Part shown: positions 42,239 to 59,075 of the stretch, piece after piece
How the letters are laid out: every line of letters starts with the position of its first letter
Position numbering within the stretch: the first letter of the stretch is position 1
Position numbers and translations under genes: made by a program
The notes under the pieces: generated by a model
Databases searched by the model: none
What the model was told of the DNA's origin: nothing
Seen by the model: only the letters and a program-made list of their open reading frames with translations
Source of the DNA: Bacteroides caccae
Lineage (GTDB): Bacteria; Bacteroidota; Bacteroidia; Bacteroidales; Bacteroidaceae
Direction: 5' to 3'
Assembly (NCBI RefSeq): GCF_002222615.2
Contig: NZ_CP022412.2
Location: 3,410,001-3,474,000, forward strand
DNA: 64,000 nt

Positions 42239-42430
42239 TTACTTACCTAAGAGCAACAAAGACAAGCAACGGTTCTTTCCAATTAGAATATGACACAAGT
42301 AGCTTATTATTAAAACCATTATCCACATACCGCATACACATAACCAATAAGGCAGTTGTAGGGTATCAATATCAAGACAGGAAATAAGTAGAGTAATAAC
42401 AGTTAGGTGGATAGCATAAATACTCAATGT
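42239..42430 (-). pseudogene. C-terminal piece of an acyltransferase-3 family membrane protein
   Basis: Frame GTLSIYAIHLTVITLLISCL through MWIMVLIISYLCHILIGKNR to a stop at 42239. These are the last two or so helices of an O-acetyltransferase-like membrane protein (acyltransferase 3). The upstream 85 percent is absent: at about 42425 the frame joins a glycosyltransferase fragment. It would have acetylated capsule sugars. Confidence 0.7.
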
Positions 42431-42620
42431 CCCCCCATTTTGTATTATGCTGATTTACAAACACATACACCCCATCTATTCCTTGTAGGCATGAAAAGTC
42501 CTCTCCGGATGAAGCGTCCACATGTACGTAAAACTCCACATGAGGAGCTTTTAGCCGCTGTATTGTATGAAGCAGCAGCTCCGGGTTTTTATAAGTCAAA
42601 AAGAGATAGACAATATTCAT
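42422..42620 (-). pseudogene. N-terminal piece of a core-2/I-branching (GT14-like) glycosyltransferase
   Basis: Starts MNIVYLFLTYKNPELLLHTI and continues EFYVHVDASSGEDF, VFVNQHNTKWGD, the opening of beta-1,6-N-acetylglucosaminyltransferase-type enzymes. Homology ends at TKWGD, exactly where the acyltransferase tail begins in another frame. The join is a deletion scar of two former genes. It lies ten bases after the GT11 gene. Confidence 0.75.
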
Positions 42621-42630
42621 ATCTTCTATG

Positions 42631-43500
42631 TTATAGTTTTATCCATTTATCAGAAACAGGGTCTTCTATCGGTGAGTTCATCCACCTTTCGGGCGCGACC
42701 ACCACCTTCTGCGGATTGCGGTTCAGCCAAGCTCCCCACCAGGAGAAAGAAGAGTTGGCAATGATATTGTGCCGGCACAGGCTCATCAACCGCATATCCA
42801 CATAGCTTTCCGCACCCTTGTTCCAGTCTACATACACCACCTCCTTCCCCGGCAATAAAGCACGCAGATGGCTTTCGCACCAAGCCATATCGTTGGAAAA
42901 GACACAATACAGCTGCGGATTTACCCGCTCTTCCATGTAGTGTATCGCCCGTTTATAATAGTCCAAATCACAAATTCCCCGAAAAAGCGGATGGTTTACG
43001 TAATCCCCGCGGCGGACATGCAATGAAGCACTGTCGCTTGCCTGAAGCAGTGCCCCTATTTCCTTGTTCCGCCCGTCGACCGGCTCCGGAAAGGAGAATG
43101 CTTCCCAAATAGTTTCCTTCATGTCGCAAAAATATTCCTCATGCTGCCAATAACCGTCATAGTAACAGTCTCCTTTACGTGTTAAAACGGCAGCATCAAA
43201 GGAGAAGTTTTTCCGCTCCACGCACATGGTTTTACGTTTTGGCAGAATGTATTTCCCTATTTTCCAGAACCGGTAATTCGGATATGGATATGCCACTTTC
43301 AAAATATTCCTCCATGAAGCGACGGGGGCTTTTTGTGCAAATATCCGGTCTACCTCAAAACCATTGTGCAGGGGATAGTTCCTGAAACAGGATGTATCTA
43401 TCATCACCTGCTCATGAGGGAACCGCTCTTTCAATGAAAGGAACAAGGCATACTGGAACATCTGGTTTCCCAGACCTCCGAGAATTTTTACGATTTTCAT
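42631..43500 (-). CDS. GT11 alpha-1,2-fucosyltransferase
   Basis: 289 residues. GT11 signatures: KILGGLGNQMFQYALFLSLK at the start, SLHVRRGDYVNHPLFRGICD (the HxRRxD GDP-fucose motif), FSNDMAWCESHLRALLPGKE and NSSFSWWGAWLNRNPQKVVV. It would transfer fucose from GDP-fucose to the 2-position of galactose. Immediately after the GT6 gene (14 bases), so the two probably act in sequence on the same repeat unit. Confidence 0.92.
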   Translation of the reverse strand: MKIVKILGGLGNQMFQYALFLSLKERFPHEQVMIDTSCFRNYPLHNGFEVDRIFAQKAPVASWRNILKVAYPYPNYRFWKIGKYILPKRKTMCVERKNFSFDAAVLTRKGDCYYDGYWQHEEYFCDMKETIWEAFSFPEPVDGRNKEIGALLQASDSASLHVRRGDYVNHPLFRGICDLDYYKRAIHYMEERVNPQLYCVFSNDMAWCESHLRALLPGKEVVYVDWNKGAESYVDMRLMSLCRHNIIANSSFSWWGAWLNRNPQKVVVAPERWMNSPIEDPVSDKWIKL

Positions 43501-43514
43501 TATCTGATAAGTTT

Positions 43515-44306
43515 TTAAAGATACCAGCGAATCGCTCTATAAATGACACTGACTGTTTTTTTCAGTTTCCCCTTCAATGAGTAATCACGTCCTTTGTTAA
43601 AGTAAGGATCAAGTTTTACTTTGTCACGGAAAATAATTTTAGGTGAAAAATCACATGTAATCCACTCTTCCGGGAAACAATATTCGGCAGAAAGCACTTT
43701 GCAGTCATGAGTCCGGAAATATTTGTTGATATGGCTTTCATCATGGACTAACGCCACGATACCTTTTTCATAATCGGCATGGATATTCTCCGACAGAGTT
43801 TCTGCCATTTCCAAATAGTCGGCAGCTTCTCCTCCGTTTATTCCACCCATATAATAGATATATGGCTTGTCTTCCCGGGGAGGTATATACGCCGATGAAT
43901 GCTTGTTACGTTCGTAGGGATAAAATGCCGGATGCTTGAAAGGCTTACGCTTGCCCGGCCACTCTGCCCCTACAAGCTTTTCCCCATTCAGCGGCAATAA
44001 CTCCTTTCCTACAGGAGCTTTAAACTCCGCATTGCTATTGAAAAAGTAAATATAATCCGTCTTCTCTAATTCTTGTCTCACTTGTAGGAACATATCGAAG
44101 CGGAAAAGAGAGTCTGCCGGAAAGCCTGCGCACTCTTTTTTTATCAAGTGTACATTGGCTTCGTCGGACAAAGACATATCATCCGTGAATACATAGTATT
44201 CCAATTGGGCAATATCCTTTAGCAGATACTTCTCACACGATTCAAAGAAACCCTTGAAAAATTGGTTGTACTTGCCTGTACATATATATAGAATAGCTAC
44301 TTTCAT
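43515..44306 (-). CDS. GT6 glycosyltransferase (bacterial ABO-type alpha-1,3-GalNAc/Gal transferase)
   Basis: 263 residues. Family 6 marks: VAILYICTGKYNQFFKGFFE, YYVFTDD, the nucleotide site FFNSNAEF (Asn90-Ser-Asn92, the metal-independent NXN motif of bacterial GT6 in place of DXD), AEWPGKRKPFKHPAFYPYER, YYMGGINGGEAADYLEM, HDESHINKYF and LSAEYCFPEEW. Mammalian relatives make blood group A and B antigens; a characterised B. ovatus enzyme of this type transfers GalNAc. Donor choice here is not proven. The neighbouring GT11 would make the fucosylated acceptor (H-type). Confidence 0.88.
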   Translation of the reverse strand: MKVAILYICTGKYNQFFKGFFESCEKYLLKDIAQLEYYVFTDDMSLSDEANVHLIKKECAGFPADSLFRFDMFLQVRQELEKTDYIYFFNSNAEFKAPVGKELLPLNGEKLVGAEWPGKRKPFKHPAFYPYERNKHSSAYIPPREDKPYIYYMGGINGGEAADYLEMAETLSENIHADYEKGIVALVHDESHINKYFRTHDCKVLSAEYCFPEEWITCDFSPKIIFRDKVKLDPYFNKGRDYSLKGKLKKTVSVIYRAIRWYL

Positions 44307-44309
44307 ACT

Positions 44310-45533
44310 CTATTGCTTCATTTTATTTCCGTTGACATGTTCTAATATCCACTGTTTGTCATAATGGTCTTGCAATATTACAGGTACCGGCATGGCGATA
44401 TACTGATATCTGGAATTCAGTATAATGGATCTATAGTTTACGGTATTACACAGAGTTGTCATTATTCCGCACCATAAAAGAATTGTTATAAACCGTTTCC
44501 TAATGTAGAAGTGCTGTTCTATTTCCAGTAAAAGGAAAATGCCTATGGTGGAAAGTACAAATGTCAGTCTGTACAGCATTGTCATATTGGAAATGAACAT
44601 TACAGCCATCCCTATCCACACCGCAGCCATACGCGTCCATCTGCATGAGTGATACTGGGCGACTCTGGTGGGATTAAAGTATTGATATACAAGCACTAAT
44701 AGAGGAAGAAGAAACAATCTGACACCAATGGTAAGAATAAAACCATAAATAGTGATAGCAGAATTGTCGGAAACGCTGTTGCCTCCCCCGAAATACCAGT
44801 CCGCGCGCCGTCCCAATAAGTAACTGAAGTGTGAAATTATAGGAATTAACACAACAGAAAGCAAGCCGAAAAATACGATTGTCTTCCGTTTGGTGGAGCA
44901 CAGCCAATACAACAGTACACTTATAGGAATGAAGAATGCGAATGATACATGAATTTGTGTGGCGAACAAGGCAAAAAATAAAGCCGGAAGCCAGGACTTC
45001 TTATTGAACACCAAATGCAAGGCGTAAATATACTGACAAACGGCAAAACCGTATCGTACCCCGCTGGTAGTCATGATGAACTCAAAGAACAGATACATGA
45101 TGCAGAAACGCATGAAGACTTCCCCGTATGTATATTCACGCTCCGATGTTTCAATCATATAATTGAATATGACTGTCAGCAAGAAGAAACTCTCTGTTAC
45201 TGAAAACAACCGGAGATATTGATATGGAATGTTGCCGTTTACCAATATCCAGTTTACGATAGGGATAAAGTAATCCGCGGACTGCTTGTTCACATACACA
45301 TAAGAGAAAGGTTTGTCTAAATAGTGATAAATATTGAGTGAATGCCTGAACAAGTCGGACAATGGAACTTGTAGCCATGCAAGGAATCCTAAGAATAAGG
45401 CAAAGAAAAAGTACGCGCTACGCTCTTGCCTATATATTCCCAACAGAATGTAAGGCAACGCCAGCAACGGCGACAGCAAGAACAATGTCGCTACCGTCAC
45501 CGTATACAGTCGTATATAACCATTATAATACAT
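44310..45533 (-). CDS. EpsG-family polysaccharide polymerase (Wzy-like)
   Basis: 407 residues and about ten membrane helices. Features of EpsG: FRHSLNIYHYLDKPFSYVYV, a TTSGVRYGFAVCQYIYALHL segment and QIHVSFAFFIPISVLLYWL. It is the intact one of two EpsG-like genes and so the likely polymerase that joins repeat units in the periplasm. No catalytic residue can be assigned. Stop is three bases before the GT6 start. Confidence 0.85.
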   Translation of the reverse strand: MYYNGYIRLYTVTVATLFLLSPLLALPYILLGIYRQERSAYFFFALFLGFLAWLQVPLSDLFRHSLNIYHYLDKPFSYVYVNKQSADYFIPIVNWILVNGNIPYQYLRLFSVTESFFLLTVIFNYMIETSEREYTYGEVFMRFCIMYLFFEFIMTTSGVRYGFAVCQYIYALHLVFNKKSWLPALFFALFATQIHVSFAFFIPISVLLYWLCSTKRKTIVFFGLLSVVLIPIISHFSYLLGRRADWYFGGGNSVSDNSAITIYGFILTIGVRLFLLPLLVLVYQYFNPTRVAQYHSCRWTRMAAVWIGMAVMFISNMTMLYRLTFVLSTIGIFLLLEIEQHFYIRKRFITILLWCGIMTTLCNTVNYRSIILNSRYQYIAMPVPVILQDHYDKQWILEHVNGNKMKQ

Positions 45534-45547
45534 GATATGAGCTATTA

Positions 45548-46481
45548 CTAATATCCGAACAATGTTTCTTGATGCTCTAAACTGAAATCAAAGAAACTGT
45601 ACGGAACAAGATGAAACCATTCATCTCTATAAATCAAGACAATGAGTATTCGCAAAACCAATATCGCGACAACCGCATATTTTAATATTTTCAATCGCTT
45701 GGCCGCTTCCTCCTGATACAGGCTGTTTATAAAGAGTACAACCGCATATTGCGAGAAGAACATACCGAAGCGGAAAAGGGCTAAAACATGGAAGTGCCCA
45801 TATGTTGACAATCAATGCTGACAAGGCGAATGAAACATATAATTTGTCCTTTTCAATCTCTTCTTTATACTTGTTGCCGTAAATATAATAAAACAACAGG
45901 CACGCAAGTATGAATAATGTATCCAACAATTGCGCCAAGGGAACCGCCTCCCGCTCCATGCCTGTTACCAAGTATTTACTATCACCATAGCACCAATAAA
46001 ATATATATGACACGGATACAGCCAATGACTGCCTGATTGCGCTATAACATCCGAGCAGGAGTGTACTTGTCATCAGGACAAAAACAGCAAACGCGACATG
46101 TGAAGTCGACTTATTCAGAAACCATAACAGGGAAGCGGTCGTTATGAATGAAGTGATGATAATGAGAGAATACGGCTCTTTTGAAATGACCAGTCCTATA
46201 ATTCTAAGAAATATCTGAAATCCTTCCTCGAAATTAGAGGAAGAGTCAAAAGTGTACCAAGGTGTATTGTCGAATGGCGTGTTGGAGAACAAGTGCCTTA
46301 CATGTCTGTAATAATGCGCCGTGTCGTTTAATATTGGTAAGTCTCTAAATCCAAAGAATATAAACAGCAGAAGAAAACACATGACGATTTGTGTATTTTT
46401 CTGCACCTTTTCTCCTTTAAAATGCCAAGATATATACTCAACAAGCAAAAAGGAGAGACAAAACAGGATTATAACTGACAT
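45548..46481 (-). pseudogene. Frameshifted second EpsG/Wzy-like membrane protein
   Basis: The first 235 codons (from 46481: MSVIILFCLSFLLVEYISWH, LILNDTAHYYRHVRHL-like region, TTASLLWFLNKSTSHVAFAV) are open and hydrophobic, then the frame turns to low-quality sequence near 45790. The matching continuation (ALFRFGMFFSQYAVVLFINS, then ILKYAVVAILVLRILIVLIY, ending ETLFGY at 45548) is in the +1 frame. A single-base change near the TTTTAGCCCTTTT tract would restore about 310 residues. Either a real frameshift or an assembly error in that tract. The start overlaps the upstream gene by 13 bases. Confidence 0.75.
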
Positions 46482-47653
46482 TTCATTTCGCTATTAAACA
46501 ACCTTATCCATAGTTTTACCACGTTTTCAGGCATAAGACGTTCCATTGAGTTCATCACATTCATCACATAATCCACTTTAAAATTATCCGCCAAACGTAA
46601 TACCTTATCAGCATACTTATCTATATCAAACGGCTTCACAAGAAAGCCATTCTTGCCATCCTCAATTATTTCATGTATGCTTTCAAAAGAATCAAAAGCA
46701 ATGGGTACGCAACCGAATTGCATCGCTTCTGTCAATACAAGTCCCCATCCTTCATGATTGCTAGTCAAACAAAAAATGGAAGACTCTTTGTAATATTTGA
46801 TAGGATTTGCAAACCCTGCAAACTCTACACGCTGCAATGATAGTTTTTTACTCAATTGTTTCATTTCATTGCTAAATGGTCCGTCACCAACAATCACAAG
46901 ATTCCAATCCGGTAATTGTTCTTGTAGCTTTTTCCAAACTAACAAAATACGATCCGGCCTTTTTTGGGAAAAAAGTAGCCTACCACACCATAATAGCTGT
47001 TTCTTTTTCTGATAGTTATTCATCTCATAGGGAAATGATAACATATTATTAATAGCTGTTAGTTTAGAGGATTCTTTTATACCAGACAATTTGATATATG
47101 ATTCCTTAAATTCATTACTTAATAATACAATCCTGTCACTATTAAGATACAGATTCTTGTACATCCGACATTGATCATACATGAAAATGTAACGGAGAGG
47201 GAAACGTGTACATACATCCCGCAAAAGATTAATAATATTCTCTTTTAAAGACAAATATTTGAAACTCACAAGATTTCTATTTCCTTTTATTCGCATATCT
47301 GGCGAGAAATGCAATACAGAAATCAGTTTCACACCGGACAAACTTTTTACTTCATAACAAGTACGGTTATAAAGTTCCGAATGGGAATTCTGATTCAACA
47401 ATATATCCACCTTTTCCTCTTTTAGAATATGTGCCAACGCCTGTACGTTCTCGATGCAATAATCCAAAGTTTTAGGTAGGAGCACTTGTTTGGCTGGTAG
47501 TGTATAAGGTTTGCTGTAAGGAGATTTCCGACAAGCGACAAACAGCACTTCTACCCCTTCCTTTATCAGTCCCTCGGCCAATGAAACAGAAACACGCTCA
47601 ATCCCTCCGATAGTGGGATTAAACTCTTGTACATTACAGATTGCTATCTTCAT
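46469..47653 (-). CDS. Family 4 glycosyltransferase
   Basis: 394 residues, GT-B fold. N-terminus FNPTIGGIERVSVSLAEGLI; C-terminal donor domain LLWCGRLLFSQKRPDRILLV, IVGDGPF and the retaining motif LTSNHEGWGLVLTEAMQFGC (E-x7-E). Adds a sugar to the lipid-linked repeat. Overlaps the pyruvyltransferase gene by four bases. Confidence 0.92.
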   Translation of the reverse strand: MKIAICNVQEFNPTIGGIERVSVSLAEGLIKEGVEVLFVACRKSPYSKPYTLPAKQVLLPKTLDYCIENVQALAHILKEEKVDILLNQNSHSELYNRTCYEVKSLSGVKLISVLHFSPDMRIKGNRNLVSFKYLSLKENIINLLRDVCTRFPLRYIFMYDQCRMYKNLYLNSDRIVLLSNEFKESYIKLSGIKESSKLTAINNMLSFPYEMNNYQKKKQLLWCGRLLFSQKRPDRILLVWKKLQEQLPDWNLVIVGDGPFSNEMKQLSKKLSLQRVEFAGFANPIKYYKESSIFCLTSNHEGWGLVLTEAMQFGCVPIAFDSFESIHEIIEDGKNGFLVKPFDIDKYADKVLRLADNFKVDYVMNVMNSMERLMPENVVKLWIRLFNSEMKCQL

Positions 47654-48714
47654 GCGAGTATGGATTTCAAATAATTCAATGAACTTTCCCGATAAGCAGA
47701 AAGCCGTTGATTGACAGTCTCATAATTTATAGAAGGAGCAGCAATTGCATCATCCACATCATTAACGATACGCCGTTTTATTCCAAGAATGTCCAGCAGA
47801 TTAGATATCCTGAAAACCTTGGAAGGTTCACTGATATATACATAGAACGGCTTGCCGAACAACATGGAGAAAACGGTAGCGTGAAAGCTGTCCGTTATGA
47901 CTACTTTTGCAGAGGCTATGGCATACAACCATTCTTCTATGGGAAGAAATTCCATGTTTTTCTTTCGTTCCGGTTGCAAATACCCGTAATGCTTACGGAT
48001 AGGAAGTCCTGTCTTAACAGATAACCCTTTGGCAAAAGCATTCATTTCTGCGGTATCGGATAATGAAAGAAACAATATCTCGTTTCTTTCTTCCACTTTG
48101 TGCGGCAATAAGTCTCTGTAACTTTCAAGCAACAATGTCGGGTCAATCACTTCCACCGCATCAATCCCGTTACGTTGCAGAAACTCTACCCCGAATTTCT
48201 CACGAACTGCAATTCTCTTGAATAAAGAGAGGGCTTTCATATCCAATTCGGATTTTCTTCTCTCCTCGTCCTTGATGTTGCCGAAACTGGCCGCGTATGC
48301 ATACCTGTTTTTTACATCGTTCTTCAGAAAAGAAAAACAGAAAGCTGTCCGTAAGTTCTGGGTTATCCCCGGATTCCAAACCTGGTCGCTGCCTATCAGA
48401 TAATAGTCGTCCTTATTCCACGGGTAGGACTCCAGCTCAGCTGTAGTATGAAAATTACCTATCTGATTGGGACAATGCTTCCTGCTGAATCGCTCCGCCA
48501 GCGCAAAACAATGTGAGTATCCCTTCATCCACTTATGCAGACCAAGCAATACCCTGTATTTGAGGCTGTAAGGGAAACGACTGTAATCCATGTCCAAATT
48601 GATGATGTAGGGTACATGACCGAGATTCTCTATTGTCTTGTACAAGGCGTATGCCTGTAGTACAGCTCCATAGTTCGGTTCTTTGTGTATGGTGAGGATA
48701 TTTACATTGTGCAT
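47650..48714 (-). CDS. Polysaccharide pyruvyl transferase
   Basis: 354 residues. PS_pyruv_trans signatures: ILTIHKEPNYGAVLQAYALY at the start, YYLIGSDQVWNPGITQNLRT, YAYAASFGNI, and VVITDSFHATVFSMLFGKPF. Such enzymes move a pyruvate ketal from phosphoenolpyruvate onto a sugar, giving the polymer a negative charge. Translationally coupled to the GT4 gene and 12 bases after the TPP-enzyme gene. Confidence 0.92.
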   Translation of the reverse strand: MHNVNILTIHKEPNYGAVLQAYALYKTIENLGHVPYIINLDMDYSRFPYSLKYRVLLGLHKWMKGYSHCFALAERFSRKHCPNQIGNFHTTAELESYPWNKDDYYLIGSDQVWNPGITQNLRTAFCFSFLKNDVKNRYAYAASFGNIKDEERRKSELDMKALSLFKRIAVREKFGVEFLQRNGIDAVEVIDPTLLLESYRDLLPHKVEERNEILFLSLSDTAEMNAFAKGLSVKTGLPIRKHYGYLQPERKKNMEFLPIEEWLYAIASAKVVITDSFHATVFSMLFGKPFYVYISEPSKVFRISNLLDILGIKRRIVNDVDDAIAAPSINYETVNQRLSAYRESSLNYLKSILA

Positions 48715-48726
48715 AATTGATAATTT

Positions 48727-50487
48727 TTATTTAGTGCGACCGATGTGTTCAGTTATTTTTCGCTGGACACTTTCCGGCAGAATGGCTTTGGCGATTCTTT
48801 TTGCAATGCCTTTCGCCGATTCGTTCAATGTGTTCATATACAGAATCGAGGCGTTTTCGTCCACTTCGTTGGTAAAAGCTTCCCAAACCAAAGGTTTGTC
48901 CGTCAGTTTGCAGGATGTGAACCAATCTATGTTCTCAAGAAAACTTTTTTTATCGGTTGACGCACGATATTCAAATCCTAAAGCACCGACAAAATCACGG
49001 ACCAATCTCGGCGATTGTGCGCCGAAATGACCACGAGCCGCAAAATATTCATTGGCGGCATCACCGAACTTGAAAGCCGGATGAAGGTAATTTTTAAACT
49101 CTATTCCTTCTCCGTTATTTACAAGAAGAATTCTTATGTTATTTTTAATATAGTGGTTGCCAAGGGCGTTGAGATCATAAAAGAAAGCTAAATCGCCCAC
49201 CACTAAAAAAGATATTTTTTGGGGGGCATTAAATGAAGCTCCAACAAGTGCCGATATAGGTCCGTCAATACCAAATCCGCCGGTATTACATTGGAAATGA
49301 ACGCTGCCGGGAATATTAAAGTAATTCCATGAACGCAGAGAGTTCAAGATACCGACATGGAGAATTGATTCGTCCGGCAGCTTTCCCGATAGTTGGCTTG
49401 CCATCCAGATATTCGAAAAAGGTATGGCGTCGACATTGATTTTGGCGCGTGTAGTCTCTATTTCCGTCCGGCATTCTTCAAGGAAAGTGTTTTTTGCTTT
49501 TGCCGGGACATCCATAGAAGCATAATGACGGAAAAACCATTCTTCTTCGGTTTGAAATACATATTTCAACTTTCTAAAATGGTCGCGAAGTTCACCGTCA
49601 GGATTTACCCGCCACACTTCTTGTGGAAAAGCCTTCATATATGCTCCGGACACTTCTCCGATGTGTATGAGGAGACCTACATGATTAATCTCACAATCTC
49701 TTTGCGATTGAGAACTTAATAAGGGGAGCAACACTTTAAACCGCCCATTATAGCCACTCGTATTATCGCAAAAAACCACAGCACCGTATTTCTCGCAAAA
49801 GGCATCGACAGCTTCTGTCAGGCCTGAAGTGAACCGTGAATGGTTACCCACGAATATGGCTATACGCGCGAAATCGCCTAATGGAGGAAGAACGTCAGTG
49901 TAGCCAAACCGGAATATGGCATTGGCCGGAATAATTTCTTTCACAGTATAATCACCGGACACAAGCGTCACACAATTAATATGTGCCGGTCCGCCACCAT
50001 TACGGCGCAACGCAAGAATGGCTTTGTTGGCTTTTATCGTATTGCCCCATTCATCATCAGCATCTTTACAAAATTGAAGATGAACACTGCAAACGTATGT
50101 ATCTTGCGGATGGCTCAAACGATTGATCGTTTGAGGATTTAAGTGTCCGTATGTATCCACCTCACGGGCACCGGTTATGGCAAGTACAGGCAATTTGCGG
50201 TAATGCGCTTCAGTTATCGCCGGGAAATAGTCTCGTGAAGCTGTCGCACCCGTACAAGTGATAACAACCGGCTCACCGCTTTCTGCGGCTAAGCCGCATG
50301 CCATGTATGCGGCAGAACGTTCATCAACACAAGAGATAACATCGAACCATTTGTCATATTGGACACTGGCCACGAATGGCATGTTGGTTGTTCCCGGAGA
50401 AGCGATGATTTTCTTTATTCCATGTTGTTTCAAAAGAGAAACAAGGATTTGCACATTGCGTTCAGCGCTATAATATTTAGTTTCCAT
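48727..50487 (-). CDS. Thiamine-diphosphate enzyme (MenD-like)
   Basis: 586 residues. N-terminal pyrimidine-binding domain with IKKIIASPGTTNMPFVASVQ and the catalytic glutamate in SCVDERSAAYMACGLAAESG, VITCTGATASRDYFPAITEA. C-terminal pyrophosphate domain with VVGDLAFFYDLNALGNHYIK and LVNNGEGIEF, the GD-x(n)-NN motif. Sequence style is closest to MenD-type 2-oxoacid decarboxylase/carboligases, but the genes around are capsule genes and no menaquinone genes are near. It may make a branched or ketone-bearing sugar or a lipid-linked precursor. Substrate unknown. Confidence 0.8.
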   Translation of the reverse strand: METKYYSAERNVQILVSLLKQHGIKKIIASPGTTNMPFVASVQYDKWFDVISCVDERSAAYMACGLAAESGEPVVITCTGATASRDYFPAITEAHYRKLPVLAITGAREVDTYGHLNPQTINRLSHPQDTYVCSVHLQFCKDADDEWGNTIKANKAILALRRNGGGPAHINCVTLVSGDYTVKEIIPANAIFRFGYTDVLPPLGDFARIAIFVGNHSRFTSGLTEAVDAFCEKYGAVVFCDNTSGYNGRFKVLLPLLSSQSQRDCEINHVGLLIHIGEVSGAYMKAFPQEVWRVNPDGELRDHFRKLKYVFQTEEEWFFRHYASMDVPAKAKNTFLEECRTEIETTRAKINVDAIPFSNIWMASQLSGKLPDESILHVGILNSLRSWNYFNIPGSVHFQCNTGGFGIDGPISALVGASFNAPQKISFLVVGDLAFFYDLNALGNHYIKNNIRILLVNNGEGIEFKNYLHPAFKFGDAANEYFAARGHFGAQSPRLVRDFVGALGFEYRASTDKKSFLENIDWFTSCKLTDKPLVWEAFTNEVDENASILYMNTLNESAKGIAKRIAKAILPESVQRKITEHIGRTK

Positions 50488-50491
50488 AGAT

Positions 50492-51583
50492 TTATTTTCC
50501 GATAACCAAAAATATGCGATTAAACAACGGTTTTGGCATATATCTCACAAGCAATTGTTTTACTCTGTTTTTAATACCCCTTATATTTTGCAATGGTACA
50601 TACGAATTTGCAAGCCGGGCATGACAAGGAGCCGGGATTGACCTGAAGTTTTCCCTTTTAAGGAATTCGGTAAGACAATGCTCCAACCCCTTTTTCACTT
50701 CCGTAAATTTCAAATCCGGCAAAACGCCCATCAACTTGGCATTATTGAATCTTCTGTTGTAAAGCCGATCGTACTTTGCGTGCCATTGCCCTTGTCTGAA
50801 CCTGAGATTCAAACTTTCATCCGTCCATTTTACACGCATTTTTATGTTTCGCTCACGAAGAAGAACCATCTTATATATATCGAGAATCTCATTCCACTTC
50901 AACGATTGATTCGTTGTTATGGTAAAGTCCTCGCCGAACGCTTTGTCATTCCCGATCAGTTTACTTATGGCAAAAGCTACATCTTTCGCAAAAGTAAGTG
51001 TGGTGTATTGTTGTGCTATATCTTTACTGAACAAGACCTCTCCACCGTTAAGACAGCGCCATAACCACAACTCTTTCTCATAACATCCCAGTTGCAAACG
51101 ATTAGAGTTAAAAGTTATATAGGGCCTTACAATTGTCCAGTTTGTCAATCCGGTCTGTCGCAATATATTTTCACATAACGCCTTGTTTATCGGATATGGC
51201 TTTACTGCCAAAAGCTCTTTATCGGTAGTTACGTCGAGCAAACGTGGGGTCTTTTCTGTGATTATCTCATCCAAATCAGAGTATTCTGTAGCCGATGACA
51301 AAAAGAAATATTGGTCAGTAGACTTTAGCAGCAAACCAATCCTTTGCCGGAATACCGATTCGCTATATATCATAAAATCAATGACAGCGTCCCAATGATT
51401 CCGCATAAGGATGTTTTCCAGTTCACTTTGGTTCAGTACATCGGCTTTCAAATATTGTACATTTTCTTCTGATGAATGCTCTGAACGAGACGTAACACAA
51501 ATTTGGATGTCCTGATTTTGTCTCAAAATGGCAATAAGTGGAGTACCTATCGCACCTGTTCCTCCTAATATCAAGATTTTCAT
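50492..51583 (-). CDS. NAD-dependent epimerase/dehydratase (extended SDR)
   Basis: 363 residues. NAD loop ILILGGTGAIGTPLIAILRQ, VQYLKADVLNQSEL, FFLSSATEYSD and a PYPINKALCENIL segment (active-site Tyr and Lys region). Likely oxidises or reduces a sugar nucleotide or a related precursor. It lies between flippase and MenD-like genes and overlaps the flippase stop by four bases. The MenD-like enzyme and this one may act in one pathway, which is inference. Confidence 0.85.
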   Translation of the reverse strand: MKILILGGTGAIGTPLIAILRQNQDIQICVTSRSEHSSEENVQYLKADVLNQSELENILMRNHWDAVIDFMIYSESVFRQRIGLLLKSTDQYFFLSSATEYSDLDEIITEKTPRLLDVTTDKELLAVKPYPINKALCENILRQTGLTNWTIVRPYITFNSNRLQLGCYEKELWLWRCLNGGEVLFSKDIAQQYTTLTFAKDVAFAISKLIGNDKAFGEDFTITTNQSLKWNEILDIYKMVLLRERNIKMRVKWTDESLNLRFRQGQWHAKYDRLYNRRFNNAKLMGVLPDLKFTEVKKGLEHCLTEFLKRENFRSIPAPCHARLANSYVPLQNIRGIKNRVKQLLVRYMPKPLFNRIFLVIGK

Positions 51584-53094
51584 CGCACAAATTTTATCTT
51601 TCGCATAAATGAATTAAAATAGTTCCGCTCATAATTGTTAAGAGACAGTCTGTATGATACAGGCAGATAAAACACAGAGAAAGCGATAATACCCAAGCCC
51701 AATTTGCCCCAATCGGAAAAATCAGTATATGGCAATATCAACAGACCTGCTACAACAAACAATGAGGGCACCAAAGACATCTTTAATATTTCTATCCAAA
51801 ACTGCCGTACATTTATTCCGATTACCCGGGCATACATCTTGTTCAATATCGGTCCGTATGTGATTACGATGCATAAGAAAATGGGGAAAGAACACCCCAC
51901 GGCACCCCAATATTTCGCACAAGGGAATATGGCGACGAAGCTCAATAATGAAGCGAATATCACAATAATCGTTTTCCTTTTCATCTTATTGTATGCCATC
52001 AATATGGAATTCCCCAGATTCTGTATTGAGGGGATTGTGGTACATACAAAAATCATCAAAGTAATGTAGTAGACAGACATATACTCTTCACCTACCCAAA
52101 GGGTTATAAATGATTTTCCGAATATCACAAAACCCACTATAATGTACGATATTACCGCATATTGGATTCGTCCTGTTTTTATGAATAAATCCGATATTTC
52201 TTTGGCAGTGGTATTGGAAGTAACCATCCGTGTAACCTTTGGAAGGAATACTGAACTTATGGCCGAAGAAAACAGATAAAACATTCCCTTTAATTGAATG
52301 GCTAACGAAAAAATCGCTACCATTGTTGTCCCTTGAAAGATTCCTAATGCCCATTGTCCCGAGTTCCAATAAAACTGTTCGGTTATAGCCGCAAGAAAAA
52401 TCCAAAAAGAGTAAAATAGGATTTCTCTGAAAAAGTTCCAATTCATTTTTCCAAAGACAATCTTTATTTTGAGTTTATGCCGGCAATAAAAAGCATTGCC
52501 GAACAGAAATGCAATATTGAATATGGTTTGTACAACTACTAATCCAATAGCTTTATACCCCAATCTTAAAATCACAATCATTACAATGGTAGATAGAACG
52601 ATACGGGCTATTTGGGCTAATTTTTGGAAAATAAAATTTTCATACGCATTTATTATTGATCCGTAAACACTAAGCGGAAAGGTCAAGGCAAGATTTATCA
52701 ATAATATTAACAGTAGAATTTTTGCTTTCGACAGTTCTTCCGGCGACATGGATTTGTCGAATAGATTATCCACATTGAAGCAAAGGATTATTCCAATACA
52801 CAAAGCAAATAGACCTATGGCACAAAACAACTTCAAAAACATTCCAAACATTTCATATTGTTCAGTCGTTTTGTTTTCCGTCCGAAACTTTGCGGTGTAT
52901 CTTACGATAGCATTGCCAAATCCGAAATCCAAAATGGTCAGATAGGAAATTACTGATGCAACCAGTGAGAATAAACCATACTCATTTTGGCCCAACATAC
53001 GTAACATATATGGGGTGTATAGTAATCCTACTAAAGCATTTATTCCTATTATGACGTAGTTAAGAGCGGCTCCGGCCTTAATTTGGTTCTCCAT
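51580..53094 (-). CDS. wzx: Wzx-type polysaccharide flippase
   Basis: 504 residues, about twelve membrane helices, starting with NYVIIGINALVGLLYTPYML and RMLGQNEYGLFSLVASVISY, the Polysacc_synt signature. Moves the undecaprenyl-linked repeat unit to the periplasmic side. First intact gene of the operon after upxY. Confidence 0.9.
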   Translation of the reverse strand: MENQIKAGAALNYVIIGINALVGLLYTPYMLRMLGQNEYGLFSLVASVISYLTILDFGFGNAIVRYTAKFRTENKTTEQYEMFGMFLKLFCAIGLFALCIGIILCFNVDNLFDKSMSPEELSKAKILLLILLINLALTFPLSVYGSIINAYENFIFQKLAQIARIVLSTIVMIVILRLGYKAIGLVVVQTIFNIAFLFGNAFYCRHKLKIKIVFGKMNWNFFREILFYSFWIFLAAITEQFYWNSGQWALGIFQGTTMVAIFSLAIQLKGMFYLFSSAISSVFLPKVTRMVTSNTTAKEISDLFIKTGRIQYAVISYIIVGFVIFGKSFITLWVGEEYMSVYYITLMIFVCTTIPSIQNLGNSILMAYNKMKRKTIIVIFASLLSFVAIFPCAKYWGAVGCSFPIFLCIVITYGPILNKMYARVIGINVRQFWIEILKMSLVPSLFVVAGLLILPYTDFSDWGKLGLGIIAFSVFYLPVSYRLSLNNYERNYFNSFMRKIKFVR

Positions 53095-53117
53095 TTTTTA
53101 ATTCATATTTAAATGCT

Positions 53118-53264
53118 TCAGAACTTCTTGCCAAATACGTTGGAACGGAACGTGTTGAGCAGAATCTTGAAGTCGAACAGCCACGAACGGTGGCCCCAAT
53201 AATAAAGGTCGTACTCCAGCCGGCGCAACATCTTTTCCATGGTGTCAGTATAGCCGTTGTAAGC
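53118..53264 (-). pseudogene. C-terminal fragment of a second initiating sugar transferase
   Basis: Frame AYNGYTDTMEKMLRRLEYDL through SWLFDFKILLNTFRSNVFGK, then KF and a stop at 53118. It closely matches the last 50 residues of the intact transferase at 40481-41107 (AYNGYTDT versus LYNGYTDT, DFKILIKTF versus DFKILLNTF) but is not identical. The fragment begins exactly at a 56-bp palindromic element. It marks where an older end of the operon was cut away. Confidence 0.85.
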
Positions 53265-53320
53265 ACTCAATTTAGGGCACCCCCCTTTGAAAGGGCAGTT
53301 GGAAGTGCCCTAAACTGAGT
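53265..53320. repeat. 56-bp palindromic element at the breakpoint
   Basis: Arms ACTCAATTTAGGGCAC and its near complement (15 of 16 pairs) enclose an inner palindrome CCCTTTGAAAGGG. The left edge falls on the first base before the sugar transferase fragment. It looks like a miniature element or a collapsed IS with both ends. Confidence 0.65.
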
Positions 53321-53341
53321 TGAATTAAAAATTTGTTCTAG

Positions 53342-53399
53342 ATTTAACATTGCCCCGTAGCCAAAGCGATTTTGTCAGGAATCATACAGCATAGTTCCT
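53342..53399. repeat. 58-bp repeat, copy 2
   Basis: About 50 of 59 positions match copy 1 at 41978-42036, same orientation. It lies in the 130 bases between UpxY and the palindromic element. Confidence 0.75.
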
Positions 53400-53451
53400 G
53401 CACCCGTTAAAGTTATTTTAATAGAAACACTTCAAGAGCGTATGTTGAACA

Positions 53452-54045
53452 CTAAACTTTCGGAGTATCATTGATTAAGTGAATAGGCTCTACATAACCG
53501 ATCGGCATATCAACACAGGCACAACCGAGCATATTCAAACGGACAGCAATCTTACTCTTACTCCCGACAGTCACCAGTTCGCCGACAAGACCGCTCAAAG
53601 GACCTTTTATGACACGGACCTTCTCACCACGGGCCAAAGGAGAGTCATTCATACAGACGGCTTCATCAGAATAATCGAGCATGAAACGGAAACGGGCCAT
53701 TTGCTCGTCGGGAATTACGGCAGGAGTACTTTCACCACGCATCACCATATAACGGCTGACAGTGGAAAAGGAAAGAACTTCCATACGCTCCTTGGGAGTC
53801 ACATGAACGAAAACCATCATCGGAAGCAAGACGGTATCCACCAGCTTACGACGGTCGCTCCATTGATGAATCTGTTGCTGAACGGGAACAAAAGAATCAA
53901 TTCCCATTTTGGATAAACGTTCGGATACCTTCTTCTCGTGATGCATACGAACGAGAGCGACATACCAACGTTTTGAGTGTGCTACGCCTTCCCCTGTCCC
54001 ACAACTAGGCCCGGCATTGACTGACTTCTTTTCTTGAAAAATCAT
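53452..54045 (-). CDS. upxY: UpxY-type NusG-like antiterminator of the capsule operon
   Basis: 197 residues. NusG N-terminal domain (RWYVALVRMHHEKKVSERLS, DSFVPVQQQIHQWSDRRKL, VLLPMMVFVHVT) and a C-terminal KOW domain (VRVIKGPLSGLVGELVTVGS). UpxY proteins are first in each Bacteroides capsule operon; they stop premature termination in the leader of their own operon. The invertible promoter lies directly upstream. No UpxZ gene, the usual trans-inhibitor of other UpxYs, follows it here. Start codon is preceded by GGGGTAAAAAAAT, a plausible AT-rich leader. Confidence 0.93.
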   Translation of the reverse strand: MIFQEKKSVNAGPSCGTGEGVAHSKRWYVALVRMHHEKKVSERLSKMGIDSFVPVQQQIHQWSDRRKLVDTVLLPMMVFVHVTPKERMEVLSFSTVSRYMVMRGESTPAVIPDEQMARFRFMLDYSDEAVCMNDSPLARGEKVRVIKGPLSGLVGELVTVGSKSKIAVRLNMLGCACVDMPIGYVEPIHLINDTPKV

Positions 54046-54068
54046 ATTTTTTTACCCCAATTTTATCC

Positions 54069-54087
54069 GTTACTTTAAAGGTAACGG
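54069..54087 (+). repeat. Left inverted repeat of the invertible promoter
   Basis: GTTACTTTAAAGGTAACGG, itself nearly palindromic, with extended arms ATCCGTTAC and GTAACGGAT (54065-54089). Likely recombinase binding site with a seven-base crossover. Confidence 0.85.
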
Positions 54088-54292
54088 ATCATACACATAG
54101 GAGACATGACAGCAATGAAAAAGGGAATTATACTAACAAGGAGGACGTAAAACCGGGGAATGTCTGATATTCAATGCAGAAATCATTCGGATTCAGGCAA
54201 TAAAATCCATTGAGCATGAAATTCATATTTTCATGTTCAGCAGCTTTTTTATCGCATATTTCAAGAGAAAAAGGAAAAAAAGGAAAGTTTAC

Positions 54293-54324
54293 TTGTATGC
54301 TATTAATATTTTTACCTATATTTG
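54293..54324 (+). promoter_or_regulatory. Promoter inside the invertible segment
   Basis: -33 TTG 54293-54295, spacer 21, -7 TATATTTG 54317-54324. In this orientation transcription runs antisense into the recombinase gene. Confidence 0.75.
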
Positions 54325-54337
54325 CATCGAAATATTT

Positions 54338-54356
54338 CCGTTACCTTTAAAGTAAC
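54338..54356 (-). repeat. Right inverted repeat of the invertible promoter
   Basis: CCGTTACCTTTAAAGTAAC, the exact complement of the left copy. It lies 44 bases from the recombinase stop codon. Confidence 0.85.
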
Positions 54357-54400
54357 ATTCATCTAAGCATACTATTTATCAACAGTTTACACACATACAA

Positions 54401-55345
54401 CTAGATAGTCTTGAAGTTCATCACGTAAGAATAATTCAACCGATTTACTTTAGTTCTTTCTGACAGTTCGAAGCCTTTTAAATAGATTTGTGTTGTTTTG
54501 ATAGATTTGTGTCCCAATGATTCACTTATCATTTCGATAGGAACTCCACGATATTTTGCCGTAGTAGCCCATGAATGACGGAATGTATAAGAGGTTACAG
54601 AGGAGCGAATACATAACTTTCTGGCTAAACTCTTCAAATCATTATTGAAACAACGTAAAGCAGATTGGTATTCTTTATAACCCGCCTCATCACTCCTCTT
54701 ATTCTTTCCACTCAATATGTAAAACAGATAATCCGGATGTTCGGGAAGAACTGTTGTATGCTTATTGCGAAGTTGTGAAATGATAGTTGCTGCCGAATCC
54801 AATATTTCTACGTTCATAGGAATACCGGTTTTGGCACGGTTGTACTTCAACATATTCCCTTCCAAATTTGACTTTTCCAAATAGGCAAGATCGACAAAAG
54901 GCATTCCGCAAAATAAAAACAATAAGTTGGCAATAGCTTGTGTCCGACGCAGCTTATCAGATTGTGGGTCTTCGTTAAGTAACGTATGAAGTTCGTTTAT
55001 AGGAATAGCTTTCTTCTGACGAGTGTCTATCCCAGTGAACACATCACGAAACATACGATGAACGTATGGGGTCTGATGCATATCTACTCCCCTATTGTAT
55101 ATGCAGCGCAACATCCGCATATAGGTAGAAATGGTATTAAGCCTCAAATGGCAATCCATAAGATAGCTGCTATACCTCTTTAAATTTCCACGGGTGATCT
55201 GTCTGAATGATACACCCGCAGTGCCACAAAACATAGTGAAAGAGCGAAGCGCACTTTCATAAACATGCGCAGTGGCATAACGCCCTTCTTGCCGCAAACA
55301 CTTAATATAATGTTTTGCGCATACGGTAAATCCGTCTTTTCTCAT
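54401..55345 (-). CDS. Tyrosine site-specific recombinase (capsule promoter invertase)
   Basis: 314 residues. An N-terminal SAM-like core-binding domain (YIKCLRQEGRYATAHVYESA, RGNLKRYSSYLMDCH) and a catalytic domain with the arginine in LRRTQAIANLLFLFCGMPF, then SYTFRHSWATTAKYRGVPIE (RxxH-type box), SLGHKSIKTTQIYLKGFE (His and nucleophile Tyr). It is adjacent to the inverted repeats and on the same strand as the capsule operon, as in Bacteroides loci where a local invertase flips its own promoter. It is a likely but unproven inverter of 54069-54356. Confidence 0.93.
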   Translation of the reverse strand: MRKDGFTVCAKHYIKCLRQEGRYATAHVYESALRSFTMFCGTAGVSFRQITRGNLKRYSSYLMDCHLRLNTISTYMRMLRCIYNRGVDMHQTPYVHRMFRDVFTGIDTRQKKAIPINELHTLLNEDPQSDKLRRTQAIANLLFLFCGMPFVDLAYLEKSNLEGNMLKYNRAKTGIPMNVEILDSAATIISQLRNKHTTVLPEHPDYLFYILSGKNKRSDEAGYKEYQSALRCFNNDLKSLARKLCIRSSVTSYTFRHSWATTAKYRGVPIEMISESLGHKSIKTTQIYLKGFELSERTKVNRLNYSYVMNFKTI

Positions 55346-55451
55346 ATTATTACTATTAGTTTAAAAATGAATTCGATAATACGAGAATTTAAACAAATTT
55401 CCAAACAAGAAGGTGCTTTTCTATAGTTTTCTTATATTGTTTTTAGTAACC

Positions 55452-57059
55452 TTATACAATCTGATATAAAGATGCTGCTGTATCCAGATAGTTAATAAAA
55501 TCTACAATCTTGTATGGACGAATAACAAGCTGCTTTTTATCCTTAACCCAGTCTATCTGATTCTCAGAATCAACAAATATACTTGGTGCCAGAAACACAC
55601 ATTGGAAATTTTCACATTCATATTTTTCTCTAAGCTCCTTTAAATGTCTCGCAATAGGCCATACTTCCATCATTGTCTGCTGACGCCCTTCAGACATTGT
55701 GACTTCCACCAATATACTGTTAGAAGCCTCGAAACACTCAATATCTCCAATATCCCCACCAGCCGTAGAGGTTGGCAGACCTTCATCGTCACATGGATAA
55801 TTGGGAATTACCTCAACAGCAGGCAGTTTTGACTTAATAGCAAGGGCGGTCAGGAACTCTAATCTTGCCGGAGCTGCAATAAACCTTAAAATATTGTGGC
55901 TTGATGATGTTTTTTTCGCCAAATGGGTAAGTTCTTTTTTAATAGAATCCCATGAGTAATCACCCACGAGTTTAGCTAATTTATCAGCTGCGACATTTTT
56001 GGGGATTTCGACAGCTTTTAATGCAAACAATGCATCATCAATGTCTGACATATAGTCAAAATATTCTTCTTTTGAAGTGTACTTGCGATATGTGGCATAA
56101 TTAGCCAGTATATAATTTATCTTATCATCTTCATTATGGTTAATGTCGATAAATCGACCACCCCCTCTAAATGATATAAGTCCTGTCATTCTCATTTTGC
56201 GGACAAATTCATCGGGATATTCGGACACAATAGAGTCAAGATCAAATTTCTTGAATCCCCCAAGTATTTCGTTTACACATATATCCTCTATCACTTCATT
56301 TGAAGGATTGTACCTATGTTCCTTTCGCAGAAGTTTAATACGCTGATACAAAGATTCCGCATCATTATCTTTCCAAAAGATAACTAAAGGTATCTCCTTA
56401 TATGAGATTCCCGAACCATTATAATCTGGATCAGAGTTTAACTTCTTTATAACTTCAAGCAATAATATCAGTGGAATATTATCATTTAATTCACAAATAA
56501 ACGGATTGCATCTTTGTTGCTTGGCAAAAGCTTGCATAAATGCAATTTGCTCATTCTGTGGATTTACAATCTCGCGAGATATTGCTCCTGAATCTATTTC
56601 AATGGATACAGTATCTGCAAGATAGTTACCTGTTTGAGAGAAGTTTATAGGCTTTCCCCATTCATAATATACAAAGCCCAGAACTTTCATCAATTTGAAT
56701 TGTGTGTCAAATCGACTCGGCCACCCTTTAGGAAACCCTGCTTCTTTATGTCCCTTTATACTTTTGTTGACTTGGGGATCATTCTGCTGATACACATCTT
56801 TCGTTTCTTCATCTGTTAATGGTTTGCTGGCTAATTCCCCGTTCTTTGTTGATTTCCACTTATCCTGAACTGTTTCCGGGCGCTTCATTGGTCGATACAA
56901 GCCAACCTTAAACAGTTCTCTCTCGAACAACTCGACTGTTTTATTATTAAGTATCCGGCCATTGAATCGTTTAAGTATGTGCATGAAATCTTTAAAACGC
57001 TCAGGATTTCGTATCGTAGTCGTGTAAAGCAACGGCTTATATTCAGGTTTTCTAGGCAT
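55452..57059 (-). CDS. AlwI-family type IIS restriction endonuclease
   Basis: 535 residues. Starts MPRKPEYKPLLYTTTIRNPE, with RFKDFMHILKRFNGR, FPKGWPSRFDTQFKLMKVLG, and a C-terminal stretch EVIPNYPCDDEGLPTSTAGG, DIGDIECFEASNSILVEVTM that fits a PD-(D/E)XK nuclease (D, E and nearby residues). This resembles the AlwI/BstNBI endonuclease family, which cuts beside short asymmetric sites (AlwI GGATC). The site recognised here is not known. It is third in an operon after two methyltransferases, one base after the second. Confidence 0.8.
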   Translation of the reverse strand: MPRKPEYKPLLYTTTIRNPERFKDFMHILKRFNGRILNNKTVELFERELFKVGLYRPMKRPETVQDKWKSTKNGELASKPLTDEETKDVYQQNDPQVNKSIKGHKEAGFPKGWPSRFDTQFKLMKVLGFVYYEWGKPINFSQTGNYLADTVSIEIDSGAISREIVNPQNEQIAFMQAFAKQQRCNPFICELNDNIPLILLLEVIKKLNSDPDYNGSGISYKEIPLVIFWKDNDAESLYQRIKLLRKEHRYNPSNEVIEDICVNEILGGFKKFDLDSIVSEYPDEFVRKMRMTGLISFRGGGRFIDINHNEDDKINYILANYATYRKYTSKEEYFDYMSDIDDALFALKAVEIPKNVAADKLAKLVGDYSWDSIKKELTHLAKKTSSSHNILRFIAAPARLEFLTALAIKSKLPAVEVIPNYPCDDEGLPTSTAGGDIGDIECFEASNSILVEVTMSEGRQQTMMEVWPIARHLKELREKYECENFQCVFLAPSIFVDSENQIDWVKDKKQLVIRPYKIVDFINYLDTAASLYQIV

Positions 57060-57060
57060 A

Positions 57061-57966
57061 TTAGTAATTTGTGATTAATACTTCGCTAATTTGTTTTGTT
57101 GAATTGTCGTGATAGCTTATATAATTACTCTTTATCGGATGAACATTGTACTTGCATGCCCAATCTATAAACAGATTGTTACATCGACCTTTGTAATGAG
57201 TAACATTCGATATAGCGAACCGAATACGTCGTTTGTTTAGGCTATCCAATAATTGCAACAACTCAATTTCATCTTGCTCATTCCATAACTTATTATATTC
57301 ACTAAATGTGATAAGATATGGCGGGTCTAAATATACAAAATCTTTTTCAGACAACCTTATTTTTTGTAGGAAATCTTTATAATCGATATTAAACCATTTA
57401 GGTTTTTTGGATATTACTTGCATGAAATATGCCTCTAGAGCATTTACTACATTAGCATTAAAATCAACATTGCCTACAGGAAGATTGAAGTCTCCATTTT
57501 TATTGAATCGTAGCATTCGATTAAATCCATATATCAACAGAAGATACAAAACATATAAATCTGCTACCGACGATTCATTAAAATCCCTTTTCATCTGCCC
57601 ATACGCTTCTTTGTTATATTTAGCATAGTATGTTTTTTTATACTGTTGCCTAAGTTCTATCGGGATACGATCTTCCTTATATGAATATGATAGTCCATAC
57701 TCAGCGATAAGACTTTCTATTCGACTAAAAAATTCAGTTCGTTTATTGGCAGATTTACATAAAAATTTGTGTAGCGCAATTACATTTACATCTATATCAT
57801 TCAGGTAAAATTTCCGAGCGTCAATATTCATAAATACCGACCCTCCGCCAACAAACGGTTCAACGAATTTCTCTATGTCGTCAGGGAAATACGAGCTAAT
57901 TTCTTCAATGAGCTTATATTTGTCTCCAACATAGAAAAAAGGTGATCTTACTATCTTTTTTTTCAT
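57061..57966 (-). CDS. Dam-type adenine-N6 DNA methyltransferase (first of two)
   Basis: 301 residues, class D12. Motif I FVEPFVGGGSVFMNIDA (SAM site) near residue 35 and catalytic motif IV DFVYLDPPYLITFSEYN, with the N-terminal RSPFFYVGDKYKLIEEI. Its start overlaps the upstream methyltransferase stop by four bases. With an asymmetric restriction site two methylases are needed, one per strand, so the two enzymes together should protect the host. Confidence 0.9.
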   Translation of the reverse strand: MKKKIVRSPFFYVGDKYKLIEEISSYFPDDIEKFVEPFVGGGSVFMNIDARKFYLNDIDVNVIALHKFLCKSANKRTEFFSRIESLIAEYGLSYSYKEDRIPIELRQQYKKTYYAKYNKEAYGQMKRDFNESSVADLYVLYLLLIYGFNRMLRFNKNGDFNLPVGNVDFNANVVNALEAYFMQVISKKPKWFNIDYKDFLQKIRLSEKDFVYLDPPYLITFSEYNKLWNEQDEIELLQLLDSLNKRRIRFAISNVTHYKGRCNNLFIDWACKYNVHPIKSNYISYHDNSTKQISEVLITNY

Positions 57967-59075
57967 TGCCCTACTTCCGTGATAAATAATAGTTCCTTGT
58001 GCTTTGCAAAATTAGTCTTACCTGCATTAAAATATCTGTGATCGCAATCATATATCTTTGTAGTACCGCGTTCTTCTAAAATGGATTTAATCTGCTCTAA
58101 TGTAATCTTGTTTTTTGATGACCCGCTTTTTGATTCGTATGTATTATTGTATGATACGACAATATACTTGACGTTCAATTTACTTATAAGATCCCGAAAT
58201 GCAACGGGAGCACTAGAGGTACAATATGCACTCATATTTTGTGCTTTAGGCTTCATCGCTACACCAAACAATTCAGGCTTCTCCCAAGTTACCAGATTTT
58301 CGTAAATATGATAAAATCTACTATATTGACGAGAGTTATAAGGCGGGTCAATATATGCAACATCTGCCGTGATGTTTTCAGCAAGTATATTGGAGTCTTC
58401 TCTAAAGATTTCTACACACTGAGGATCAAGTGGTCTAATAAGTTGTATGGATAAAGGATGATACAGGATGTTTTTTTTGATGTATGCATCAAAATGCCCT
58501 ACTGTATTTGCTATTTTATCAATACTATATATTAAAGAGGTCAATAGAATGGCATATTCCTTATGCGTCAATGCCACTTTCCTCTTTTCGACATCCTCCC
58601 TTATATGACCTATCAATTTGGAGTTCTTGTAATCAAAGAACTTATCTCCGAAATTATCCGAAAAGTAATTGTCTTCAATAGTGTCAGGATTTATATTATT
58701 ATAATACTCTATGATTGAATGAAGTTTATTCATATCATAAGTTCCGGAACCAAAAAAGGCTTGATATATAATATTGTTAGATGACAGAAAGTCATTCATT
58801 ATTATTCTCTTTGCATAAGGTATCGCAGCCTTGGAAACAGATGCGGTTCCCGCAAAGACATCAAAAAATGATTCAAACCCTCCTGTATGCTCGTTGATTA
58901 TATTCATAATCCAAGGGGTTAACTTTGCTTTATTTCCAATATATCTACGACTCTCCAAATCAAACATCTTATACCCCAAAAGAGTGACATCTATATCAGT
59001 TCGATTATAGACTTCTTGTAATGACAATTTCAATTCCTCACGAACATCTTTTGAATACTGACTCAATGACTCCAT
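57963..59075 (-). CDS. Adenine-N6 DNA methyltransferase (second of two)
   Basis: 370 residues. Motif I SFFDVFAGTASVSKAAIPYA and motif IV ADVAYIDPPYNSRQYSRFYH. N-terminal region LESRRYIGNKAKLTPWIMNI as in Dam relatives. First gene of the restriction-modification operon, so methylation proteins are made before the nuclease. A+T content is high compared with carAB and addAB, suggesting transfer. Confidence 0.9.
   Translation of the reverse strand: MESLSQYSKDVREELKLSLQEVYNRTDIDVTLLGYKMFDLESRRYIGNKAKLTPWIMNIINEHTGGFESFFDVFAGTASVSKAAIPYAKRIIMNDFLSSNNIIYQAFFGSGTYDMNKLHSIIEYYNNINPDTIEDNYFSDNFGDKFFDYKNSKLIGHIREDVEKRKVALTHKEYAILLTSLIYSIDKIANTVGHFDAYIKKNILYHPLSIQLIRPLDPQCVEIFREDSNILAENITADVAYIDPPYNSRQYSRFYHIYENLVTWEKPELFGVAMKPKAQNMSAYCTSSAPVAFRDLISKLNVKYIVVSYNNTYESKSGSSKNKITLEQIKSILEERGTTKIYDCDHRYFNAGKTNFAKHKELLFITEVGQ

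Follow-up and report, generated by a model that had tools for sequence, protein, structure and literature searches.

Inverted repeats between upxY and a tyrosine recombinase gene

The window, by which we mean the whole 64,000-nt stretch of Bacteroides caccae DNA that was analysed, contains a 288-bp segment (54069–54356) bounded by inverted repeats and lying between upxY, at the head of a polysaccharide operon, and a tyrosine recombinase gene. An inverted repeat search revealed arms of 20 nt with 100% complementarity and 248 nt between them, namely GTTACTTTAAAGGTAACGGA on the upxY side (54069–54088, + strand) and its exact reverse complement on the recombinase side (54337–54356, − strand). Each arm contains a palindromic GTTAC-N7-GTAAC core, and the spacers are TTTAAAG and CTTTAAA. 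An earlier note on this DNA had described exact 19-bp inverted repeats with these same complementary seven-base spacers, flanking 250 bases; the spacers and the exactness were borne out and the distance was approximately right, but the arms are 20 bp long. With its inverse pair of GTTAC-N7-GTAAC sites, identical spacers and a total length in the range of about 280–310 bp, the segment has the repeats of a GTTAC-type inverton. The exact 20-mer had no match in viral_contigs, and no second copy of the locus was found there.

On one side of the inverton, upxY (53452–54045, − strand), whose ATG lies 23 nt from the repeat, encodes a transcription antiterminator (NCBIfam NF033644, 172.5 bits against a cut-off of 100). 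Downstream of it is a capsule-type polysaccharide operon (37244–53094, − strand) with genes for a flippase, an epimerase, a TPP enzyme, a pyruvyl transferase, glycosyltransferases, EpsG-type proteins, a sugar transferase, Poly_export and Wzz/kinase; the capsule target named in the earlier note thus holds, as a UpxY family antiterminator heads a flippase/EpsG/Wzz-type operon. Between upxY (53452) and the flippase gene (53094), the interval to which the search for an upxZ directly after upxY was confined, there is no minus-strand frame of at least 80 aa. This interval contains a C-terminal remnant, the last ~50 codons, that by eye resembles the initiating sugar transferase at 40481–41200 (53118–53276, − strand) and, at the edge of the remnant, a strong hairpin with a 20-pair stem (53265–53320, − strand; z −6.2). 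The hairpin is present in a single copy in the genome, and its interpretation as a dispersed element was rejected. Remnant and hairpin (53118–53320) have the appearance of a scar left by capsule loci exchanging a cassette.

Two further stretches of the operon are irregular. The second EpsG-type gene (45548–46481) matches its profile over the first third only and is overlapped by a frame with no EpsG match; at 41953–42620, a frame with a sub-threshold Core-2/I-Branching match ends after 82 aa and is followed by no gene-length frame on its strand. The window upxY is 98% identical to that of another capsule locus in the same genome (L019:4347–4940), and the 500 bp downstream of the repeat are 97.6% identical between the two loci, whereas the recombinases are only 71% identical; judged from these identities, exchange between the two capsule loci is likely. 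An Rfam search over 52900–55600 gave no matches up to E = 1.

On the other side of the inverton, the recombinase gene (54401–55345, − strand; 314 aa), which encodes the predicted invertase of the segment, reads toward it and has its stop codon 44 bp from the repeat. The product is a tyrosine recombinase, as the earlier note had it, with a Phage_integrase domain (PF00589, 48.3 bits against a cut-off of 27.1), PF13102 and the catalytic Lys, Arg II, His III and Tyr. The corresponding residues K172, R256, H279 and Y288 are invariant in an alignment of the 71 full-length recombinases beside invertons (L102, L134 and L138, which have short frames, were left out). The canonical Arg I is absent: where the XerA-like chain 4a8e has AGLR, the window recombinase has CGMP in the alignment, and the position is occupied by Pro, Ser or Cys in all 71 relatives and by arginine in none. 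The histidine of HxxR is a tyrosine, Tyr253, in all 71. IntDOT-type Bacteroides enzymes are likewise not known to have Arg I. Because the whole family beside invertons shares this absence, it is no argument for an inactive enzyme. Searching genome_contigs with the recombinase returned eight loci at 52–72% identity; a second strain was not found in that collection, which may omit records of the same genome or of one very close to it.

Directly upstream of the recombinase gene lie genes for an AlwI-like restriction endonuclease (PF09491) and two D12 adenine methyltransferases (55452–59075). A GGATC site is present at the edge of the upxY-side repeat (54086–54090), and another occupies the matching place in L019 (4981–4985). 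GGATC is the recognition sequence of AlwI, and the neighbouring AlwI-like enzyme might recognize it as well.

GTTAC-type invertons in the genome and the genus

The single-site motif GTTAC-N7-GTAAC occurs 26 times in the genome, compared with 9 times for a reversed control. Nine exact pairs are formed, with 271–285 bp from start to start, along with a tenth that has a single mismatch in the arms. These ten pairs adjoin exactly the ten best matches of the window recombinase (itself included), which score from 715 down to 203 bits; the next match scores 147. By recombinase similarity, five of the ten invertons are capsule-type, and three of these five head upxY genes. The other five precede large genes with similar N-termini, of which one that was Pfam-scanned carries DUF4988 and another has no NCBIfam match; by analogy with the repeat type of the published B. 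thetaiotaomicron S-layer loci, these five invertons may be S-layer-like. Eight different spacers occur among the ten, and TTTAAAG is found in none of the other nine. The genome also contains a fourth upxY-like gene, whose frame holds an internal TAG (G000:C1:2964000–2964563, L029), and a distant fifth next to an eleventh relative of the recombinase (4552816–4554842, L030 and L041); no GTTAC-type site is listed near either.

A pair pattern built from the cores of this genome and run on 99 genus genomes, drawn from a larger group and including this one, yielded 88 pairs in 19 of the 99 genomes and none with the reversed control. Together with the single-site counts, this places the inverted repeats of the window locus beyond chance. 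We examined 76 pairs, the 10 of this genome and 66 of the 79 others, leaving out 13. The spacers match within the pair in 75 of the 76, a count favoured by the search pattern, which fixes part of each spacer. At the exception, L088 (G030:C1:2032634–2038935), the repeats differ by one spacer base (TTCGTAG/TTCATAG); this inverton is possibly frozen, or possibly the product of exchange with another inverton. Omission of L088, for its differing spacers, and of L140, at a contig end with no recombinase seen, left 74 loci. The recombinase gene reads toward the inverton in all 74 testable loci, with its stop codon 22–44 bp from the repeat where the locus is capsule-type (30 loci) and −12 to 52 bp where it is S-layer-type (44 loci). 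Among the 30 capsule-type loci, 22 have upxY beginning at a distance of 22 or 23 nt from the repeat. The spacer TTCTTAG is common to 27 of the 30 capsule-type invertons, and TTTAAAG occurs once in the 74-locus set.

Comparison of orthologous loci revealed the same inverton in both orientations. L097 and L117, from two other genomes, have flanks of 92.6% and 98.4% identity and invertons that are 97.3% identical when one is flipped and 54.5% identical unflipped. L127 has the recombinase closest in the sample to that of the window and is ON; the OFF invertons of L087 and L095 are 79.5–80.4% identical to it flipped and 52.6–54.1% unflipped. Because orthologous loci carry the same inverton in opposite orientations, the GTTAC-type class inverts. 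There is accordingly next to no room for the reading of the repeats as an ordinary hairpin or terminator pair with no role in recombination: the upxY-side arm and its flanks do fold as a hairpin (54065–54089), but the arms match each other over 20 bp at a distance of 248 bp, spacers match almost throughout the examined pairs, and the segments of L097 and L117 lie flipped.

The ten-to-ten pairing of recombinases and invertons in the genome and the unbroken adjacency in the genus sample indicate that the window recombinase would be the enzyme that inverts the window segment. A different arrangement, in which the segment inverts but a master invertase encoded at another locus acts in trans, making the neighbouring gene a passenger, appears unlikely. 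The recombinases of the class do share the arms GTTAC/GTAAC, the capsule-type spacers are mostly alike, and 3 of the 74 neighbouring recombinase frames are short, so that some invertons may need another enzyme; against this stand the pairing and the adjacency themselves and the rarity of the window's own spacer. The Mpi-type repeat core is ARACGTWCGT, for which there are no matches in the window, and Mpi-type control of the window promoter was rejected on that ground. A motif similar to this core, ARACGTTCGTN, is quoted in a passage of PMC8375218. Precedent for action in trans comes from passages of PMC4747536, where Mpi and Tsr19 of B. fragilis act on distant regions. These systems resemble the window in having invertible promoters upstream of capsule/EPS loci, and Tsr19 is a tyrosine invertase beside a local promoter; Mpi differs in being a serine recombinase that acts on many regions with other repeats (PMC4747536).

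Promoter orientation and the proposed capsule switch

Inside the inverton, near the recombinase-side repeat, lies a match to a Bacteroides-type promoter (54292–54324, + strand) with a −33 element CTTG (54292–54295), a 21-nt gap and a −7 element TATATTTG (54317–54324). It is a consensus match (TTTG/TAnnTTTG) with a score of 8.5, a value that 18 of 500 shuffled versions of the segment attain (shuffle median 7.25), and taken alone it is suggestive only. All 30 capsule-type invertons have a TAT[AC]TTTG box in this position. The match points away from upxY, into the recombinase gene on its antisense strand, the orientation termed OFF, in line with the earlier note, which had the promoter pointing away from upxY and toward the recombinase. 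Among matches facing upxY in the present orientation, the highest score is 6.75, which is less than the shuffle median. The orientation of the match and the alignment of invertons agree on the OFF assignment, which the earlier note had likewise made. That note had also placed the inverted promoter about 50 bases before upxY; by arithmetic, inversion brings the end of the −7 box to 55 bp from the ATG.

We propose, with high confidence, that the locus is a phase-variable capsule switch, in which the promoter segment is flipped by the adjacent tyrosine recombinase and then drives upxY and the capsule operon. The recombinase would bind the arms GTTAC/GTAAC, with strand exchange taking place within the 7-bp spacer. 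The flipped predicted promoter would then transcribe upxY and the capsule operon with a 5′ leader of about 50 nt before the upxY ATG (54045), and UpxY, by the role known for its family from the literature, would antiterminate its own operon. A conserved hairpin behind the promoter, described below, would likely limit transcription entering the promoter from behind.

The window inverton belongs to an already known class of switches, in which its spacer TTTAAAG is uncommon; the mechanism that the earlier note had taken from known Bacteroides capsule biology matches the GTTAC-type capsule and S-layer invertons in passages of the published accounts. In B. xylanisolvens CPS1, the repeat GTTACTTCTTAGGTAACGGA surrounds a 290-bp invertible region with an integrase upstream, and inversion is documented by long reads (passages of PMC12118408). 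The two loci have in common the arms GTTAC/GTAAC with a trailing GGA, the segment length, an upstream tyrosine invertase and UpxY-headed capsule operons; they differ in the spacer, TTCTTAG there and TTTAAAG in the window, and the long-read evidence for inversion belongs to CPS1. Related repeats occur at the CPS1, 3, 5 and 6 and S-layer loci of B. thetaiotaomicron (PMC12118408). The CPS and BT1927-type loci of that species resemble the window in their CCGTTACCTAAGAAGTAAC-type repeats beside tyrosine invertases and in promoter inversion, and differ in species, capsule content and spacer, BT1927 driving an S-layer protein (passages of PMC12118408 and PMC12548429). The window adds one well-formed capsule switch, and its genome a set of ten, to a class tied to the phage sensitivity of gut Bacteroides.

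The OFF orientation prevails throughout the sample. All ten invertons of the genome are OFF, as are 28 of the 30 capsule-type loci, the other two being ON, with promoter score and alignment in agreement. Among the S-layer-type loci, 43 of 44 are OFF by alignment, L120–L123 by small margins, and L136 (47 versus 48) received no call. The promoter score sets ties to OFF, which affects 17 S-layer-type rows and no capsule-type row; hence S-layer calls were made by alignment, with OFF segments of this genome as references. L121 and L123 are ON by promoter score and OFF by alignment. The OFF excess is a population bias and not a rate, an assembly showing one form, probably the commoner one. About 1 in 1,000 cells is described as expressing BT1927 in vitro, with a higher ON frequency in vivo (passages of PMC12118408 and PMC12548429), and because of this reported rise the OFF bias depends on conditions. 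The comparison turns the strong OFF bias of these switches into a testable question.

The uniform OFF state of the genome could also mean a frozen switch, that is, intact repeats at a decaying capsule locus where inversion has ceased and which is permanently OFF. The condition of the operon, with its sugar-transferase remnant, partial EpsG-type gene and stretch lacking a gene-length frame, points the same way: the operon may be partly broken, and with broken genes a flip to ON might not yield a full capsule. We nevertheless regard a frozen switch as very improbable, given that the recombinase is full length with its K/R/H/Y residues, that the repeats are identical over 20 bp, and that OFF is the usual state both in the capsule-type sample and, as reported, for BT1927 in vitro. 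An inverton can be locked experimentally: passages of the same two sources describe BT1927 locked by mutation of one repeat (PMC12118408, PMC12548429).

A conserved hairpin and the antisense geometry of the recombinase gene

The hairpin that would shield the promoter of the proposed switch lies at 54210–54240 (+ strand), has a terminator-like tail, CAGCTTTTTT, on that strand, and is conserved about 50 bp behind the −33 box across the capsule-type invertons. On the promoter strand, which is read in the ON form, 97.4% of 270 cells pair, four pairs comprising eight cells are changed on both sides, and the covariation score was reached by none of 500 shuffles. On the opposite strand 90.4% of cells pair, with five pairs comprising ten cells changed on both sides; the consensus energies are −10.9 kcal/mol for the promoter strand versus −4.7 kcal/mol for the other. 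This covariation supports the structure but is not proof of it, as sequences that share descent can exceed such shuffles even when they have no structure.

Scans for terminators did not converge on one direction. Of the 30 capsule-type invertons, 5 have a match by standard criteria when ON and 10 when OFF (shuffle means 0.8 and 1.75), and under a laxer tail rule 9 and 11 do (shuffle means 2.0 and 3.4). For the 44 S-layer-type invertons the matches numbered 5 in the OFF reading (shuffle 4.4) and 7 in the ON reading (shuffle 4.1), the latter rising to 15 under the laxer rule (shuffle 7.8). As scans and pairing tests disagree on direction, a clean intrinsic terminator inside the inverton was set aside and the designation conserved terminator-like hairpin was kept.

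A promoter in the OFF orientation points at the 3′ end of the recombinase gene and would read it antisense. Within the first 350 nt past the repeat on the antisense strand, standard intrinsic-terminator matches are absent from all 30 capsule-type and all 44 S-layer-type loci (shuffle means 3.75 and 5.8), and the laxer tail rule gives matches in 2 of the 30 and 5 of the 44 (shuffle means 6.1 and 10.2); the controls are dinucleotide shuffles only, and coding DNA may lack such matches generally. With no standard intrinsic-terminator match between the OFF promoter and the antisense strand of the gene, an antisense RNA over the recombinase is predicted. According to passages of PMC11892184, invertases near such invertons generally lie in an orientation in which the promoter is unable to drive them, consistent with the antisense geometry observed here.

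Geometry and hairpin suggest that the recombinase is under orientation-dependent control. One tentative scheme, which we put forward as speculation, is a self-damping loop: in the OFF form antisense transcription would lower the recombinase and so hold the switch OFF, and in the ON form the antisense RNA would cease, the recombinase transcript would end in the hairpin, and the enzyme would rise and flip the segment back. If true, such a loop would account for capsule and S-layer invertons being mostly OFF in Bacteroides assemblies and cultures. In the open-licence literature we found no paper describing, for Bacteroides, invertons of this kind whose recombinase is controlled by antisense transcription or by a terminator. 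In E. coli, the fimE gene runs into the invertible element fimS, whose orientation could alter the transcript of the recombinase (orientational control). The window recombinase gene likewise runs into an invertible element; the case here differs in being predicted from geometry only, in having a single recombinase and in its host. The fixed arrangement across the class, with the recombinase stop within about 50 bp of the repeat and the OFF promoter facing it, together with the covarying hairpin, predicts orientation-dependent expression of the recombinase. In several S-layer-type loci, L017 and L020–L022 included, the middle of the inverton is occupied by a G+C-rich element, with no T-run on either side, of the form CCCCTCTGCC...AGAAGCAGGGG.
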